Of a stretch of DNA of 51,393 nt, positions 20,918 through 46,993 are shown in pieces (position 1 is the first letter of the stretch; every line of letters begins with the position of its first letter). The stretch comes from a bacterium (GTDB lineage: Bacteria; T1Sed10-126). The notes beneath the pieces are model-generated. The model was given only the letters and a program-made list of their open reading frames with translations. It did not search any database and was not told the origin of the DNA. The translations under genes were made by a program, and so were the position numbers. The DNA lies in the NCBI GenBank assembly GCA_003554945.1, contig PWHN01000039.1:1-51393 (forward strand), given 5' to 3'.

Positions 20918-21110
20918 GTCATTCCCGTGGAAGCGAGAATCCAGCGGAAGTTCGGTGATCGGTAACTTCGGTAGAACAAGGTCAACCTCAAAGTCACTGG
21001 ATTGTCCGGTCAAGCCGGGCAATGACGACCGAAAGTCACTGGATTGCCCGGTCAAGCCGGGCAATGACAGAACGGAGATGATATGGATTGCTGGCCAAAC
21101 CCGCAATGAC
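20918..21110. repeat. Repeat cluster between trpG and trpD: GTCATTCCCG-type half-copy (20918-20943) and three module B copies (20998-21026, 21040-21068, 21082-21110)
   Basis: TGGATTGTCCGGTCAAGCCGGGCAATGAC, TGGATTGCCCGGTCAAGCCGGGCAATGAC and ATGGATTGCTGGCCAAACCCGCAATGAC in close succession. Confidence 0.85.
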
Positions 21111-31287: not shown

Positions 31288-31403
31288 AACCTTCCAACGA
31301 TTTCGTCATTGCCGGGCTTGACCCGGCAATCCATCTTGAATATACCATAGATTCCGGGTCTGCGGTCGCTACGCTCCCTTGCCCGGAATGACGTTGGAAG
31401 GTT
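31288..31403. repeat. Composite palindromic intergenic element bounded by 12-bp perfect inverted repeats AACCTTCCAACG/CGTTGGAAGGTT
   Basis: IR at 31288-31299 and 31392-31403; contains hairpins GTCATTGCCGGGCTTGACCCGGCAATCCATC (from 31305) and ATTCCGGG...CCCGGAAT (about 31351-31389). Confidence 0.8.
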
Positions 31404-31421
31404 TTGTATGGAGGACTACTA

Positions 31422-31967
31422 TTGTTTACTATACCGGAAGTTGTTGAAAAAATAGAAAAAGGGATTAGTTATATCTCGCCCCTGAGCTGGCTCTACTCAC
31501 GCCCTTACAGGCAGGTTGTTCGGCGTGAAATGGAGCTTGCTTCGGTTAATTCTGATGCGACTGTTCTCAATATAGGCTGCGGCGCGGTTCCATTTACCGC
31601 CCGTTTTGTTGTGCAGCAGACTGGTGCCGGTGTGATCGCCGTCGATACAGATTCCCGGGCGGTTGATAGGGCCAGCCGGCTTGTCCAGACCTGGGGGATG
31701 GCAGATCGGATTGAGCTTAGACATGTGGACGCGACAAAACTTTTGGACGTAGATTTTGATCTTGCCCTGGTGGCTCTCCAGGCTCAGCCAAAAACGGCCA
31801 TATTTGAACGGTTAAGTGAAATTGCCCCGGCGGGACGCGCTATTTTTCGCAGACCCGCTGCTGGTTACCAGGATCACTACGATGCTCTGCCGGAACAACC
31901 TCGGCCGGCAGCTTACGTGGAACAGGACATGAAGACTTTTGACCGTTCAGTTCTGTATGATTTGTAG
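31422..31967 (+). CDS. SAM-dependent methyltransferase-fold protein, nicotianamine-synthase-like motif I
   Basis: TVLNIGCGAVPFTARFVVQQTGAGVIAVDTDSRAVDRASRLVQTWGMADRIELRHVDATKL. Start at TTG 31422, about 7 nt after GGAGG. Confidence 0.7.
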   Translation: MFTIPEVVEKIEKGISYISPLSWLYSRPYRQVVRREMELASVNSDATVLNIGCGAVPFTARFVVQQTGAGVIAVDTDSRAVDRASRLVQTWGMADRIELRHVDATKLLDVDFDLALVALQAQPKTAIFERLSEIAPAGRAIFRRPAAGYQDHYDALPEQPRPAAYVEQDMKTFDRSVLYDL

Positions 31968-31993
31968 AGGAATATTTTGTAGGATTTTAAAGA

Positions 31994-33007
31994 GTGATTC
32001 CAATGAAACGTATTTTTACCTGGATTTTAAGTCTGTTTTCTATCACGGGTTTAATTTATTATGCCGGTCCCACTGAAATTTTATCGGTTTTATCCAAATT
32101 TAATCACCCACTATTTTTCTTTCTCGTATTGCTTCAGATATTAACGTTGTCGGTGCAATACTTCGTCTGGCATCGATTGTTAAATCTTGCCGGCGCTCAA
32201 ATTCCTTATTCCCGGGTGGCAAAAATTTCTCTTGCCGGCAGCTTTGTGGAAAGCGTCACACCCTCGGTAAAATTTGGTGGCGAAGCCGCTAAAACTTATC
32301 TGTTTCACCGGCACACCGGACTCAGCTACGACCGACTCACCTCGGTTCTCATGGTTCAGAAGTTCGTTTCTGTCCTGCCCTTTCTGATCTTACTGCTGCC
32401 CGTCTTCGGGCTGGCGGCTCTCTACTTAAATTTTCCCCCGGTTTTACATCTGTTGCTTCTCGTCGGGATTTTACTGCTGCTCGCTGCAACCGCGACTGTT
32501 TTTTATCTTAACCCTGCCACTGCCTCCATTTCCAACCAGGAGCCGGACGGTCTAAAAAACCAAATTTTTCTGAAACTTCAAGCCGTCCGTAGATTTGTGG
32601 GGCGTTCTGTACAGCATGCCCGTCATTTGGCCGGCGCTGCTGATCTTGCTGCGCTGCTGGCGCTCTCTACGGTTATCTGGCTGCTTTATCCACTGAAACT
32701 TTATCTTGCCGCTGTAATCCTGGGTATCCAGGTCACGCCCCTATTCATAGTCGTAGTTACTTACGCCGCCTACCTGGTCAGTATGTTCCCCCTTTTCCCC
32801 GGCGGCCTGGGCTCTTACGAGGGCACGGCAGTGCTGTTATTTATTCTTAACGGCTATCTTCCTCACCAGGGATTGAGCCTTGTGCTTATATCCCGGGCGG
32901 TCACCTTCTGGCTGCCTCTGCTTGTTTCCGGAGTTGTTGCGGCCTTTGTCTTTCAGACACAACTGGCACAAGGTTTGTACCCGCAGCGAGCCGGAAGTAG
33001 CGGCTGA
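31994..33007 (+). CDS. Lysylphosphatidylglycerol synthase TM region / UPF0104-like integral membrane protein
   Basis: TPSVKFGGEAAKTYLFHRHTGLSYDRLTSVLMVQKFVSVLPF; MFPLFPGGLGSYEGTAVLLFILNGY; polytopic. Confidence 0.85.
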   Translation: MIPMKRIFTWILSLFSITGLIYYAGPTEILSVLSKFNHPLFFFLVLLQILTLSVQYFVWHRLLNLAGAQIPYSRVAKISLAGSFVESVTPSVKFGGEAAKTYLFHRHTGLSYDRLTSVLMVQKFVSVLPFLILLLPVFGLAALYLNFPPVLHLLLLVGILLLLAATATVFYLNPATASISNQEPDGLKNQIFLKLQAVRRFVGRSVQHARHLAGAADLAALLALSTVIWLLYPLKLYLAAVILGIQVTPLFIVVVTYAAYLVSMFPLFPGGLGSYEGTAVLLFILNGYLPHQGLSLVLISRAVTFWLPLLVSGVVAAFVFQTQLAQGLYPQRAGSSG

Positions 33008-33011
33008 ATCA

Positions 33012-33929
33012 ATGTCATCTGAAAAAAATGCTCCTACGAAATCTAAAAAACAGACCGGGGTGAAACTTTTTAAAAACTTTACTTCGCCGCTGTTTAAACT
33101 GGCCAGCATGCTGTTGTCCCAATTAGAATATATCGGCACTTTTATCCCGGGTTTTACTTACCTCTACACTAATCTTTTCTATCGGAAAATGATTGCTCGT
33201 GAGATAAAAGCAGCCGGTGTGGAACCTGGTGATAAAGTCTTACATGTTGGCTGTGGTTCCTTGCCCGCCACTCCCATAGCTCTCGTTCGAGCCGGCTGCA
33301 GAGTGATTGCGCTTGAGCGTAACGAAAAATCGCTCGAGCGTGCCCGTAAGGTAGCCGCCTGGAGATTGAATAAAAAGGAGCTATCGATGCAGTTGGAATT
33401 TCGCCACGGTAATGGCCTGGGTGTTGACAGTAGTGGTTACGATGCCGTCTGGGTTTCGCTGCACGTCAACCCTCAGCCTGGGATTATACAACAGATAATT
33501 TTTAATCTTGATCAGGGAAGCTGTGTTGTTTATCGGAAGCCGACCGCCTGGCTCTCACAGTTTTATCCCCTTGTTACTCCAGAGGAGCTTGGTGGGAATT
33601 TAAATTCACAGTACCTCACGGGATGGCTGGGGAAGGAGTCCGTTGTAATCTGGTCTCAGGACTTCGAACCAGATGAAAAAATTGTTTCTCAAGATGACGG
33701 CGAGGAGATCAGTCTTGCCGACTGTCGAATTGGCGAGGCGGGGGTTATAACTCAAATACCAGACTGTCAGCTGCTTGCCCCTCTCGGGCTGCGGCCTGGC
33801 AAATACGTTCGTTTACGAGCCCGGCAGAGTTGCGGCGGTCCTCTCGTCGTTCAGACTGCCGGCCGCAAAGTGGCCGTCGATCGAGATCTGGCAGACGCCA
33901 TTAGGTTGAGGCGAAAGAGCAATGGCTGA
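33012..33929 (+). CDS. Methyltransferase-fold domain fused to C-terminal FeoA domain
   Basis: KVLHVGCGSLPATPIALVRAGCRVIALERNEKSLERARK; C-terminus ISLADCRIGEAGVITQIPDCQLLAPLGLRPGKYVRLRARQSCGGPLVVQTAGRKVAVDRDLADAI is FeoA-like. Start taken at ATG 33012. Confidence 0.82.
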   Translation: MSSEKNAPTKSKKQTGVKLFKNFTSPLFKLASMLLSQLEYIGTFIPGFTYLYTNLFYRKMIAREIKAAGVEPGDKVLHVGCGSLPATPIALVRAGCRVIALERNEKSLERARKVAAWRLNKKELSMQLEFRHGNGLGVDSSGYDAVWVSLHVNPQPGIIQQIIFNLDQGSCVVYRKPTAWLSQFYPLVTPEELGGNLNSQYLTGWLGKESVVIWSQDFEPDEKIVSQDDGEEISLADCRIGEAGVITQIPDCQLLAPLGLRPGKYVRLRARQSCGGPLVVQTAGRKVAVDRDLADAIRLRRKSNG

Positions 33930-35712
33930 TTGTCACCAGTCCCGCCAGGAAGTGGAGGAACTCGAATCTTCCATTCTCCTCATTGGTCCCCCCAATGTAG
34001 GCAAAAGCGTAATTTTTAACTACTTCACCGGGCTCGACGTGGGTATGGCAAATTATCCGGGAACTACGGTTGAGTTTTCAGTCGGTGAAATTGATATTGG
34101 GGGAGAGGAATCTGCTCGTAGCTATCAACTTATCGACGTGCCCGGGACTTACACTCTGGAGGCTACTAACGCCGCCGAACAGGTTGCAGTTGATATGCTC
34201 ACCCAGCGCCCGGCCGCCGCCGTCTGTGTGCTTGACGCTCAAAACATGGAAAGCAGTCTTTATCTGCTGCTGCAGCTTTTGGAACACGAAATCCCAACCG
34301 TGGTTGCCGTAAATCGGACCGACTTGCTGGCTAACGAAGGTATGGCTGTCGACGTTGACTATCTCTCTTCCAAACTGGGACTTCCTGTGGTTGAGACAGT
34401 TGCCGTTGAGCAACGTGGACTGGAAACTGTTCGCACGGAGCTGTCCCGGCTGGTTGAAGAGCAGGCGCAACAGCGACCACATTTTTCTTCCGAAAAAATT
34501 TCTGACACAAACTCTCACTCCCGCTGGGAAAAAGCCGAAAATTTAGCCCGATCTGCCTATTATCGAGTAGGGGAGGACCAGACAGAGGCCAAGGAAAGCT
34601 GGGATCAGTTACTTGTTTCTCCAGCGACCGGTTTTCCAATAGCATTGCTTGTGCTGACCCTGATTTTTGGTCTTGTCGTCGGTCTCGGTCTGGGGTTACG
34701 CCGTTTCTTGCTCAGCCCGCTTTTTGAACACTTCGTTATTCCTCTGATTGAGTTAGGTGTTACGTCTATAATTCCCCCGGGACTCTGGCGCTCAATTCTG
34801 ATTGGCGAGTATGGTTTTCTGGTCAAGGGACTGGAGTGGCCATTTGCCCTGGTCATGCCTTATGTTCTTAGTTTTTATCTCGGGTTAACTATGCTTGAAG
34901 ACAGCGGCTACATGCCTCGGCTGGCTGTTCTACTTGATGGAATTCTCAACAAGATAGGCCTGTCCGGCGGCAACATAATTCCACTCCTGCTGGGCTACGG
35001 CTGCGCCATCCCCGGTATCCTGGCCGCCCGGGCAATGGCCAACCGCAAGGAACGACTTACTATCGCCGTCATGATTTCACTTGCTGTTCCCTGCATTGCC
35101 CAGACCGGTGCTTTTATTTCGCTGCTTGCTGAAGCCTCTATCTGGCTCATACCGCTGGTTTTTCTCTTTTCGTTTGCCGTATTAGTGCTGGCCGGTATAA
35201 TTCTTGATTTGCTAATCTCCGGCGACTGGACGCCAACGGTGCTGGAAATACCGGAATTGCTGTTGCCCCGGCCCGGTGTGATCGCCAAGAAAATATGGCT
35301 GCATTTCAAACACTTCCTGGTTGATGGGGCTGTGCCAATGGTAATCGGTGTCGGTTTAGCCGCTTTGCTTTACGAAACTGGAGCTATGGAAATTATGGCT
35401 TATTACATGCGGCCTCTTGTTGACGGCTGGCTGGGTTTGCCGGAAGAAGCGGCGACACCCCTGTTACTTGGCATTATGCGCCGTGAACTGACCGTTTTAC
35501 CGCTTCTGGACATGGAATTATCGTTCCTTCAGCTTTTTGTGGGCTCAGTTGTTGGACTCTTTTACGTCCCCTGTATCGCTGTCATTGCCACCCTGGCTAA
35601 AGAATACGGAATACGCGTTGCCGCCGCTATATTACTCTTAACAACAACTACAGCTTTTGTTGGTGGAGGTCTTATTCTTCGCGCCGGCTGGCTGTTGGCG
35701 GCTATGTTTTAA
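33922..35712 (+). CDS. feoB: Ferrous iron transporter FeoB (short form, about 596 aa)
   Basis: G1 GPPNVGKSVIFNYFTG, G2 NYPGTTVEF, G3 DVPGTYTLE, NRTD; gate regions GYGCAIPGILAARAMANRKERLTIAVMISLAVPC and LFYVPCIAVIATLAKEYG. Confidence 0.93.
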   Translation: MADCHQSRQEVEELESSILLIGPPNVGKSVIFNYFTGLDVGMANYPGTTVEFSVGEIDIGGEESARSYQLIDVPGTYTLEATNAAEQVAVDMLTQRPAAAVCVLDAQNMESSLYLLLQLLEHEIPTVVAVNRTDLLANEGMAVDVDYLSSKLGLPVVETVAVEQRGLETVRTELSRLVEEQAQQRPHFSSEKISDTNSHSRWEKAENLARSAYYRVGEDQTEAKESWDQLLVSPATGFPIALLVLTLIFGLVVGLGLGLRRFLLSPLFEHFVIPLIELGVTSIIPPGLWRSILIGEYGFLVKGLEWPFALVMPYVLSFYLGLTMLEDSGYMPRLAVLLDGILNKIGLSGGNIIPLLLGYGCAIPGILAARAMANRKERLTIAVMISLAVPCIAQTGAFISLLAEASIWLIPLVFLFSFAVLVLAGIILDLLISGDWTPTVLEIPELLLPRPGVIAKKIWLHFKHFLVDGAVPMVIGVGLAALLYETGAMEIMAYYMRPLVDGWLGLPEEAATPLLLGIMRRELTVLPLLDMELSFLQLFVGSVVGLFYVPCIAVIATLAKEYGIRVAAAILLLTTTTAFVGGGLILRAGWLLAAMF

Positions 35713-35716
35713 TAAT

Positions 35717-35986
35717 ATGGAGGTAGGTCGGGATGTCATGGGCACTATGGCCAATACGCTTATCCTTGCTTATGTCGGCGGCGCCATTCCTTTTCTTTTG
35801 CTTTTAATGCACAATCAAATTCACTGGCTGCGTATTGTAAATATGGATTTTATGGCCGCTGAAATCCTCAGTGGTATTGCCGGCACGCTGGGTCTTGTCG
35901 TAGCTATCCCTATTACCGCTCTTTCAGTTGCACTGCTTCCGGAGAAGCTGTCAAATTTGTCTATGCCGCTGCCCTTTTGTTCCTAA
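35717..35986 (+). pseudogene. YibE/F-family 3' remnant (C-terminal about 89 aa only)
   Basis: MEVGRDVMGTMANTLILAYVGGAIPFLLLLMHNQIHWLRIVNMDFMAAEILSGIAGTLGLVVAIPITALSV resembles the conserved C-terminus of YibE/F; the upstream part is absent and replaced by feoB. Confidence 0.7.
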
Positions 35987-45481: not shown

Positions 45482-46993
45482 GTGCAGTTATTGTCGATTC
45501 TATCCACGCGGTTTATTTCCTCGCGCACGATGCGTGTTTTTATTCTGGCACTTCTGCCGCTGGCCGGTTTCAGTTTTGTTCTTTTCGGCCCACCGGCCGT
45601 GTCTCTAACCCTGTTTTCAGTTGCCGGCGTATTGATTGCCGAATTGATTTACTGTGTGCTGGCTGAAAAAAAAATATCACTAACGGATGGCAGCGCTTTA
45701 ATTACCGGCCTGCTGCTTGCCTTCAGTCTCCCGCCCGCTTTTCCCCCACTTCCGGCAGCCCTGGCCGGAGGACTGGCTCTGGTGCTGGTAAAACTGCTGG
45801 CGGGCGGTTTTGGCCAAAATTTACTGAATCCCGCCCTTGCTGCCCGGCTTCTACTTCATTTGCTCTATCCCGAGCGAATATTTGAATGGTCCCGCCCATT
45901 TGCTTACCTGGCCGCCGAGGCCGGTGCCGTAACCGCCGCCACTCCGATTAGCGGTCTGTTGGCGGGCCGCGAAGCAATTTCGATTTCTCCGCTACTTTTA
46001 GGGTTCACCCCGGGCTGCATAGCCGAAACCTCTATTTTGCTGATAGCCCTGCTGGGACTGGCCTTAATACTTACCGGTTGCTTGAGCTGGAGACAGCCTT
46101 TATCTGTTCTTGTTGGAGCGGTTATTACAGCTCTTGTTTTGACTGCGTTCGCTATCTCCACAATTGGCTTTTTTCACCATCTTTTCTCCGGCGGCCTGTT
46201 CCTGGGCGCTTTTTTCTATGCAACCGATCCGGTTACTTCTCCCCGCGGAAAGTGGGGAAAAACGGTTTATGGTTTGCTCATTGGAGCATCTGTGGTGATA
46301 ATACGGGAGTTCACTATTTTCCCCGGGGGCACGATGTTTGCTATACTGCTCTTTAATCCTCTTGTCCCGGTCTTTAACTGGATAGAAAAAGGACGGGGAC
46401 TGAGTCGACTGAATCCGCTCCGGCGACCACTGACAATTTTAATAACGGCCCTCTTCGTGGGGCTAAATATCTTTGCCCTGTTTGGCGGCGAACTGGATCC
46501 CGCCCGCTTTGTCTATATAGTTGAGGAGCCAGAACCGGTTTTTGTGGAGGACGTAACTCGCGAAAAATTAACCACATACGGGGACCGTGATTTGCCTATT
46601 TACCGGGCCCTGGACGCTGAGGGAGAGTTTTCACACTATGAGTTTGAGGCAGTTGGGCCCGGCTTTGTAGGTGAGGCTAAGGTGCGGGTCAGGATAGCTC
46701 CTGACCTGCAAGAGCTGGGGGGAATTGATATATTAGAATCAGGAGCGACCGGCGAGTGGGAACAGCGAGTAACCGAATACGTTGAAGAACCGGATAACTG
46801 GGAGGAATATGCGTTCAAGAACTGGTTTGTCGGGCTGAATCCTCACCCCGAGATCGAATTGTTGGAGGAGGGACCGGTTGAACAGGACAACCAGGTGGTA
46901 ACGGCGACCGGCGCCACGATATCGTCGCGTGGTATTGTTCAGGCGATAAACGAGGCGCTGCCGGAAGTTAAAGATAAACTTACTGAAAGGTAG
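45482..46993 (+). CDS. RnfD/NqrB-like membrane protein fused to C-terminal RnfG/NqrC-like FMN-binding domain
   Basis: GGFGQNLLNPALAARLLL, AGAVTAATPIS, GFTPGCIAETS, YATDPVTSPRGKWGKTVYGLLIG (RnfD); C-terminal VVTATGATISSRGIVQAINEAL flavinylation-like motif (RnfG). Confidence 0.85.
   Translation: MQLLSILSTRFISSRTMRVFILALLPLAGFSFVLFGPPAVSLTLFSVAGVLIAELIYCVLAEKKISLTDGSALITGLLLAFSLPPAFPPLPAALAGGLALVLVKLLAGGFGQNLLNPALAARLLLHLLYPERIFEWSRPFAYLAAEAGAVTAATPISGLLAGREAISISPLLLGFTPGCIAETSILLIALLGLALILTGCLSWRQPLSVLVGAVITALVLTAFAISTIGFFHHLFSGGLFLGAFFYATDPVTSPRGKWGKTVYGLLIGASVVIIREFTIFPGGTMFAILLFNPLVPVFNWIEKGRGLSRLNPLRRPLTILITALFVGLNIFALFGGELDPARFVYIVEEPEPVFVEDVTREKLTTYGDRDLPIYRALDAEGEFSHYEFEAVGPGFVGEAKVRVRIAPDLQELGGIDILESGATGEWEQRVTEYVEEPDNWEEYAFKNWFVGLNPHPEIELLEEGPVEQDNQVVTATGATISSRGIVQAINEALPEVKDKLTER

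Follow-up and report, generated by a model that had tools for sequence, protein, structure and literature searches.

Feo is considered the principal route by which anaerobes import ferrous iron, and nicotianamine synthase (NAS) produces metal-binding molecules. In MtNAS, the archaeal enzyme from Methanothermobacter, Tyr107 and Glu81 take the proton from the acceptor amine (PMC10491745), and the equivalents of these two residues are essential in AtNAS1 (PMC10248798). A survey of Fe/S in methanogens reported FeoAB without NAS-like or LPG partners (PMC8351635). In the open-access literature we found no description of FeoB with a nicotianamine synthase, nor of a fusion between FeoA and a methyltransferase. 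The gene set analyzed here, in which NAS-like enzymes and an LPG_synthase_TM membrane protein accompany FeoAB, appears to be undescribed.

The genes were found in a bacterial contig (PWHN01000039.1), whose 51,393 nucleotides were analyzed as a whole and are referred to below as the window. Four genes lie head to tail on the plus strand at 31422-35712. The first, MT1 (31422..31967), encodes a minimal NAS-like protein of 181 aa; its TTG start is preceded by GGAGG just 5' of it, and an alternative TTG lies at 31404. The second (31994..33007) encodes a flippase-like LPG_synthase_TM protein of 337 aa, which is matched over its whole transmembrane part by PF03706 (1.2e-42, 146.8 bits) and TIGR00374 (3e-26). 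The third (33012..33929) encodes MT2-FeoA, a fusion of 305 aa with a NAS-like part at about 33084-33677 and a FeoA domain at about 33711-33911 (8e-12). The fourth (33922..35712) encodes the ferrous-iron transporter FeoB (596 aa). Pfam detected FeoA as well as the G domain (FeoB_N, 8e-44) and the Gate membrane domains (1e-25) of FeoB, and TIGR00437 scored 312.8 bits against a cut-off of 315.65. This FeoB is the single strong FeoB_N match in the window genome. The intergenic spacing is 26 bp and then 4 bp, followed by an 8-bp overlap between the last two genes. The original prediction, made from the sequence alone, had described four tightly packed co-directional genes, the last two overlapping, and had named an LPG-synthase-TM-like protein, a methyltransferase-FeoA fusion and FeoB among the products; the spacing and the domain matches confirm each of these assignments.

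All four genes are kept in the same order in the second genome of the phylum, the only other one compared (G001, locus L029), where an intact YibE/F gene (PF07907, 2e-76) lies downstream of feoB. In the window, feoB is followed by the 3' part only of a YibE/F gene (35717..35986, plus strand), which shares 80% identity with the C-terminus of the intact L029 protein over 84 residues and does not feature in the original prediction. YibE/F is found near the gene set in 9 of the 79 genomes examined, and the remnant in the window may be a lost optional part of the set. Since the same set recurs in dozens of genomes, 79 of which were examined, the four-gene arrangement is not a chance one. REP-like palindromic repeats (TTGCCGGGCTTGACCCGGCAATC and variants) occur in the window at 21000-21064 and 31309-31331, and one of the copies lies upstream of MT1. 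Elsewhere in the window, one ORF (45482-46993) combines an NQR2/RnfD/RnfE-type membrane domain with an FMN-binding (RnfG-like) domain.

When single sequences were searched against PDB and Pfam, the link of MT1 and MT2 to NAS was ambiguous. The Pfam NAS model PF03059 (gathering cut-off 27.1 bits) gave 24.3 bits for MT1 and 16.7 for MT2, and general methyltransferase models matched MT1 too (Methyltransf_25, 3e-6). The ambiguity was resolved by family profiles and structures. PF03059 rose above its cut-off in some relatives (51.5 bits in L239, 37.9 in L237 and 32.8 in G393). A profile of the four MT proteins from the window genome and its relative retrieved MtNAS first from PDB (2e-13), followed by CntL (5e-9) and by ordinary methyltransferases from 9e-7. 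With the MT1 profile A2 (17 sequences), MtNAS was again best (1.5e-16) and CntL next (6e-16). The MT2 profile A3 (15 sequences) also matched MtNAS best (7.6e-21), and one ordinary methyltransferase, 3bus (7e-13), scored near CntL. Profile-profile comparison with archaeal NAS by hhalign gave 99.5-99.6%. The AlphaFold models of MT1 (pLDDT 93) and MT2 (pLDDT 84.5) both had MtNAS as the top Foldseek match, with TM values of 0.76-0.82 to MtNAS structures for MT1 (MtNAS entries are PDB 3FPE, 3FPJ and 3O31). The original prediction that both methyltransferase-fold proteins resemble NAS was thus upheld, as MtNAS topped all profile and structure searches and neither protein turned out to have the structure of an unrelated methyltransferase.

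The residues characteristic of NAS were examined in an alignment of 83 family members. The SAM-binding glycine motif of NAS, GxGxxP[ST], is conserved in the family, and the two versions of it first noted in the window, GCGAVPFT and GCGSLPAT, are genuinely present. The position of the catalytic Tyr107 is occupied by Tyr in 82 of the 83 members. A Glu seven residues further on is found in all 83 and in 12 of 13 NAS sequences, and an Arg is kept in 83/83 and 13/13, respectively. In MT1 the conserved residues are E12, Y29, E36 and R143. A Glu that is an uncertain counterpart of Glu81, invariant in the family (83/83), lies in the helix before the Tyr at a distance of 17-18 residues, compared with 26 for Glu81 of NAS, and falls outside the aligned region. 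Judged by sequence profile, predicted structure and these NAS-specific residues, both "methyltransferases" are NAS-like. In contrast to archaeal NAS, both are largely devoid of the helical N-terminal domain that closes the reaction chamber, with about 90 residues missing. The hhalign match spans the C-terminal core alone, and MT1 has 181 aa versus about 280-300 in NAS. Since this domain is missing, the acceptor may differ from that of NAS. In a quick tree, MT1 sequences formed one clade (SH-aLRT 99) and NAS a separate one (100), and divergent single forms, mostly from methanogens, formed a third (94).

The locus was also compared with other described systems. CntL, from opine metallophore loci of the staphylopine type, is the next-best match of MT1 after MtNAS, and the transfer of an aminobutyrate group from SAM to an amino acid is the likely chemistry common to both. 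Unlike the Cnt loci, however, the set has FeoAB in place of a dedicated metallophore importer and contains two paralogous enzymes. Among the Pfam-annotated neighbors in the window there was no CntM or CntK, nor an importer dedicated to metallophores, the flanks of relatives having been covered for the system's own parts. The missing NAS N-terminal domain, together with the lack of CntM and CntK beside the window genes, therefore sets the system apart from the usual opine metallophore pathways. As in Feo systems, FeoA and FeoB are both present, adjacent or overlapping, and relatives have Fur-like sites, but here there are additional NAS-like and LPG_TM parts and FeoA is often fused to MT2. The likeness to LPG_synthase_TM and MprF flippase-like proteins (PF03706, TIGR00374) extends over the whole transmembrane region; compared to MprF, there is no LysPG synthase domain, and the partners are NAS-like enzymes and FeoAB.

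The distribution of the gene set was surveyed in several ways. A contig scan yielded 19 loci with relatives (L063-L081), most of which have FeoB, FeoA and LPG_TM beside the NAS-like genes; the scan loci L082-L088 were rejected as other methyltransferases without the gene set. Whole-genome searches with the MT1 profile, in counts that include the seed genomes, found matches in 22 of 59 genomes from the class of a Halanaerobiaceae match, 24 of 98 from the class of a Syntrophomonadaceae match and 17 of 46 from the order of a Spirochaetaceae match. The corresponding numbers were 4/100 for the phylum of an Acetothermia match, 6/220 for the Methanocrinis class and 3/196 for the order of a haloarchaeal match. 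A PF03059 search added two further carriers in the methanogens' phylum; since this model under-detected the family there, the A2 profile was used thereafter. In 386 genomes sampled as relatives, most of which belong to other families within the same domain, matches this strong were confined to two: the window genome and its single relative.

The gene set was then examined in 79 genomes, which included Halanaerobiia, relatives of the Syntrophomonadaceae and Spirochaetaceae matches, Acetothermia, methanogens, haloarchaea and others. In 68 of them, the NAS-like genes have FeoB within 3 kb. Ten of the remaining 11 have their genes less than 3 kb from a contig end, and the other is a haloarchaeon without any FeoB_C match. 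In most relatives tested, the FeoB of the set is the sole FeoB_C match. LPG_TM is near the NAS-like genes in 60 of the 79 genomes and not near in 19, some of them at contig ends. Canonical archaeal NAS genes, in contrast, had no FeoB or LPG_TM within about 1.5 kb. The linkage of the NAS-like genes to feoB is well shown by these results; the lack of linkage in relatives that would have refuted the original prediction did not appear. Methanogens and some bacteria have a simpler form, with FeoA-FeoB, one NAS-like gene and LPG_TM (L137-L140, L197, L242-L244 and L265). Haloarchaea also have MT1-LPG pairs without an adjacent FeoB (L078 in G401 and L151 in G835); by eye, the L078 pair is near ORFs resembling cytochrome bd oxidase subunits. 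Divergent relatives of the family in Thermoplasmata (L075:2415-2981 and L081:3463-4017) show no FeoB linkage in the available sequence.

The order of the genes was found to vary. The orders observed were MT1-LPG-MT2-FeoA-FeoB, MT1-MT2~FeoA-FeoB-LPG, LPG-MT2-MT1-FeoA-FeoB, MT1-LPG-FeoA-MT2-FeoB and FeoA-FeoB-NAS-LPG, and in four genomes (G950, G965, G403 and G1101) components are separated. Fusions among the 79 genomes were of the types MT2-FeoA (30 genomes), LPG-MT2-FeoA (4) and LPG-MT2 (2), and one relative of the Spirochaetaceae match has an MT1-MT2-FeoA fusion in an 802-aa open frame (L237:6419-8824). The fusion domains were confirmed by Pfam in three examples. Since gene order varies, components separate and the fusions differ, the linkage is functional rather than a frozen order, and mere inheritance of a single operon was rejected as its explanation. 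The fusions LPG-MT2-FeoA, LPG-MT2, MT2-FeoA and MT1-MT2-FeoA tie the parts of the set together. They would position the NAS-like domain on the inner side of FeoB, flanked by the membrane protein and FeoA. The fusions to LPG and the lack of a lid domain favor a large or membrane-bound acceptor.

For the iron regulation considered in the original prediction, the signal came from relatives and not from the window itself. A Fur-like site was defined as a match to at least 11 of the 14 bases of TGATAATNATTATCA in the roughly 250 bp preceding the first gene, together with that gene's first bases. Such sites were present at 15 of 35 loci versus 19 of 555 upstream regions used as controls (p 1e-11), and at 11 of 34 loci in a second, separate set versus 12 of 558 controls (p 3e-9), p values that are optimistic because related loci are not independent. 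The upstream region of the window operon has no Fur-like site, with a best match of 8/14. A DtxR-type operator was also considered and was rejected (1 of 35 loci). As to habitat, 14 of the 19 named loci are from MAGs with sample names (CSSed, T1Sed, T3Sed and B1Sed) that match or resemble those of Kulunda soda-lake sediments, which have a pH of about 10 and molar carbonate (PMC6146748). Other carriers include Methanocrinis natronophilus and a Natronolimnohabitans. This soda-lake bias among the named loci, in a scan seeded from the window lineage, is suggestive only.

We propose, with a probability of roughly 0.5, that the gene set is an accessory module of the FeoAB ferrous-iron importer, in which NAS-like enzymes make an iron ligand, the LPG_synthase_TM protein carries it outward and FeoB imports the iron. 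MT1 and MT2 would use SAM as the donor of a 3-amino-3-carboxypropyl (aminobutyrate) group and pass this on to an amino acceptor at the inner membrane face, beside the LPG_synthase_TM protein, FeoA and FeoB. The product would be a polyaminocarboxylate iron ligand, either free or linked to the head group of a lipid, which the LPG_synthase_TM protein would carry to the outer face. This ligand may prevent Fe(II) from precipitating where pH, carbonate and sulfide are high, and deliver it to FeoB. What the data show is the NAS-like fold and residues, the conserved linkage, the fusions and the Fur-like sites in relatives; from these we infer which reaction the module catalyzes, which ligand and metal it handles and which way transport runs. 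In a possible version that we put forward tentatively, the lid-less enzymes would add the aminobutyrate chain to a lipid head group and the fused or adjacent LPG_synthase_TM protein would flip it outward, such that a membrane-anchored ligand gathers Fe(II) at the FeoB entrance. Several observations count against our proposal of an accessory module: the NAS N-terminal domain is missing, the window has no CntM, CntK or importer and no Fur-like site, and 19 of 79 genomes have no LPG_TM nearby. FeoB, in addition, is generally thought to import free Fe(II) and not chelates.

The main rivals to an outward-going ligand are a cytosolic buffer and a modification of FeoA or FeoB. A nicotianamine-like buffer in the cytosol could trap and distribute Fe(II) leaving FeoB, with the LPG protein merely anchoring the enzymes or regulating. 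This would agree with the fusion of MT2 in 30 genomes to FeoA, a cytosolic partner of FeoB, and with loci that have no nearby LPG gene (L066, L077 and L228). Such a role is nonetheless doubtful, since 60 of 79 genomes have the LPG gene nearby, 6 have it fused to MT2, and it still pairs with MT1 at loci that lack an adjacent FeoB. The persistence of that pair also argues against modification of the proteins themselves, in which MT2 or MT1 would tune the transporter by adding aminocarboxypropyl groups to FeoA, FeoB or the LPG protein. Although an active site without the NAS lid domain and the direct fusions to FeoA and LPG are consistent with a protein substrate, the NAS-type residues indicate a free amine as the acceptor, and we regard protein modification as unlikely.

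It is somewhat more unlikely that MT1 and MT2 are ordinary methyltransferases, with a lipid, envelope or regulatory role, whose resemblance to NAS reflects the shared Rossmann fold only. The matches of Methyltransf_25 to MT1 and of 3bus to profile A3 are in line with this possibility, but NAS came first in every profile and structure search, hhalign linked the proteins to archaeal NAS at 99.5-99.6%, and both groups share Tyr107, the Glu after it and the Arg. Least likely of all is that the transporter is FeoB-like and the set serves another metal, such as Mn or Zn. Opine metallophores have a broad metal range (PMC7438024) and the FeoB in the window scored slightly below the TIGR00437 equivalog cut-off (312.8 vs 315.65), whereas the upstream sites match the Fur consensus TGATAATNATTATCA and this FeoB is the sole strong FeoB_N match in its genome, as the set's FeoB is the sole FeoB_C match in most relatives tested.

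The results bear on how Feo obtains iron where Fe(II) is nearly insoluble, as at a pH of about 10 in molar carbonate (PMC6146748). A recurrent module of metallophore-type enzymes and a flippase-like protein on FeoAB would give a testable answer, and it may show how anaerobes in alkaline, salty habitats acquire scarce iron. If true, a membrane-anchored ligand would be a surface-bound alternative to secreted siderophores, common to bacteria and archaea of alkaline, anoxic habitats. The module would also add to NAS-type chemistry a large new branch, one found in bacteria and archaea, and would suggest a cargo for LPG_synthase_TM proteins beyond their known lipid roles. It would mean, finally, that genes annotated merely as "class I methyltransferase" beside feoB can be iron genes.
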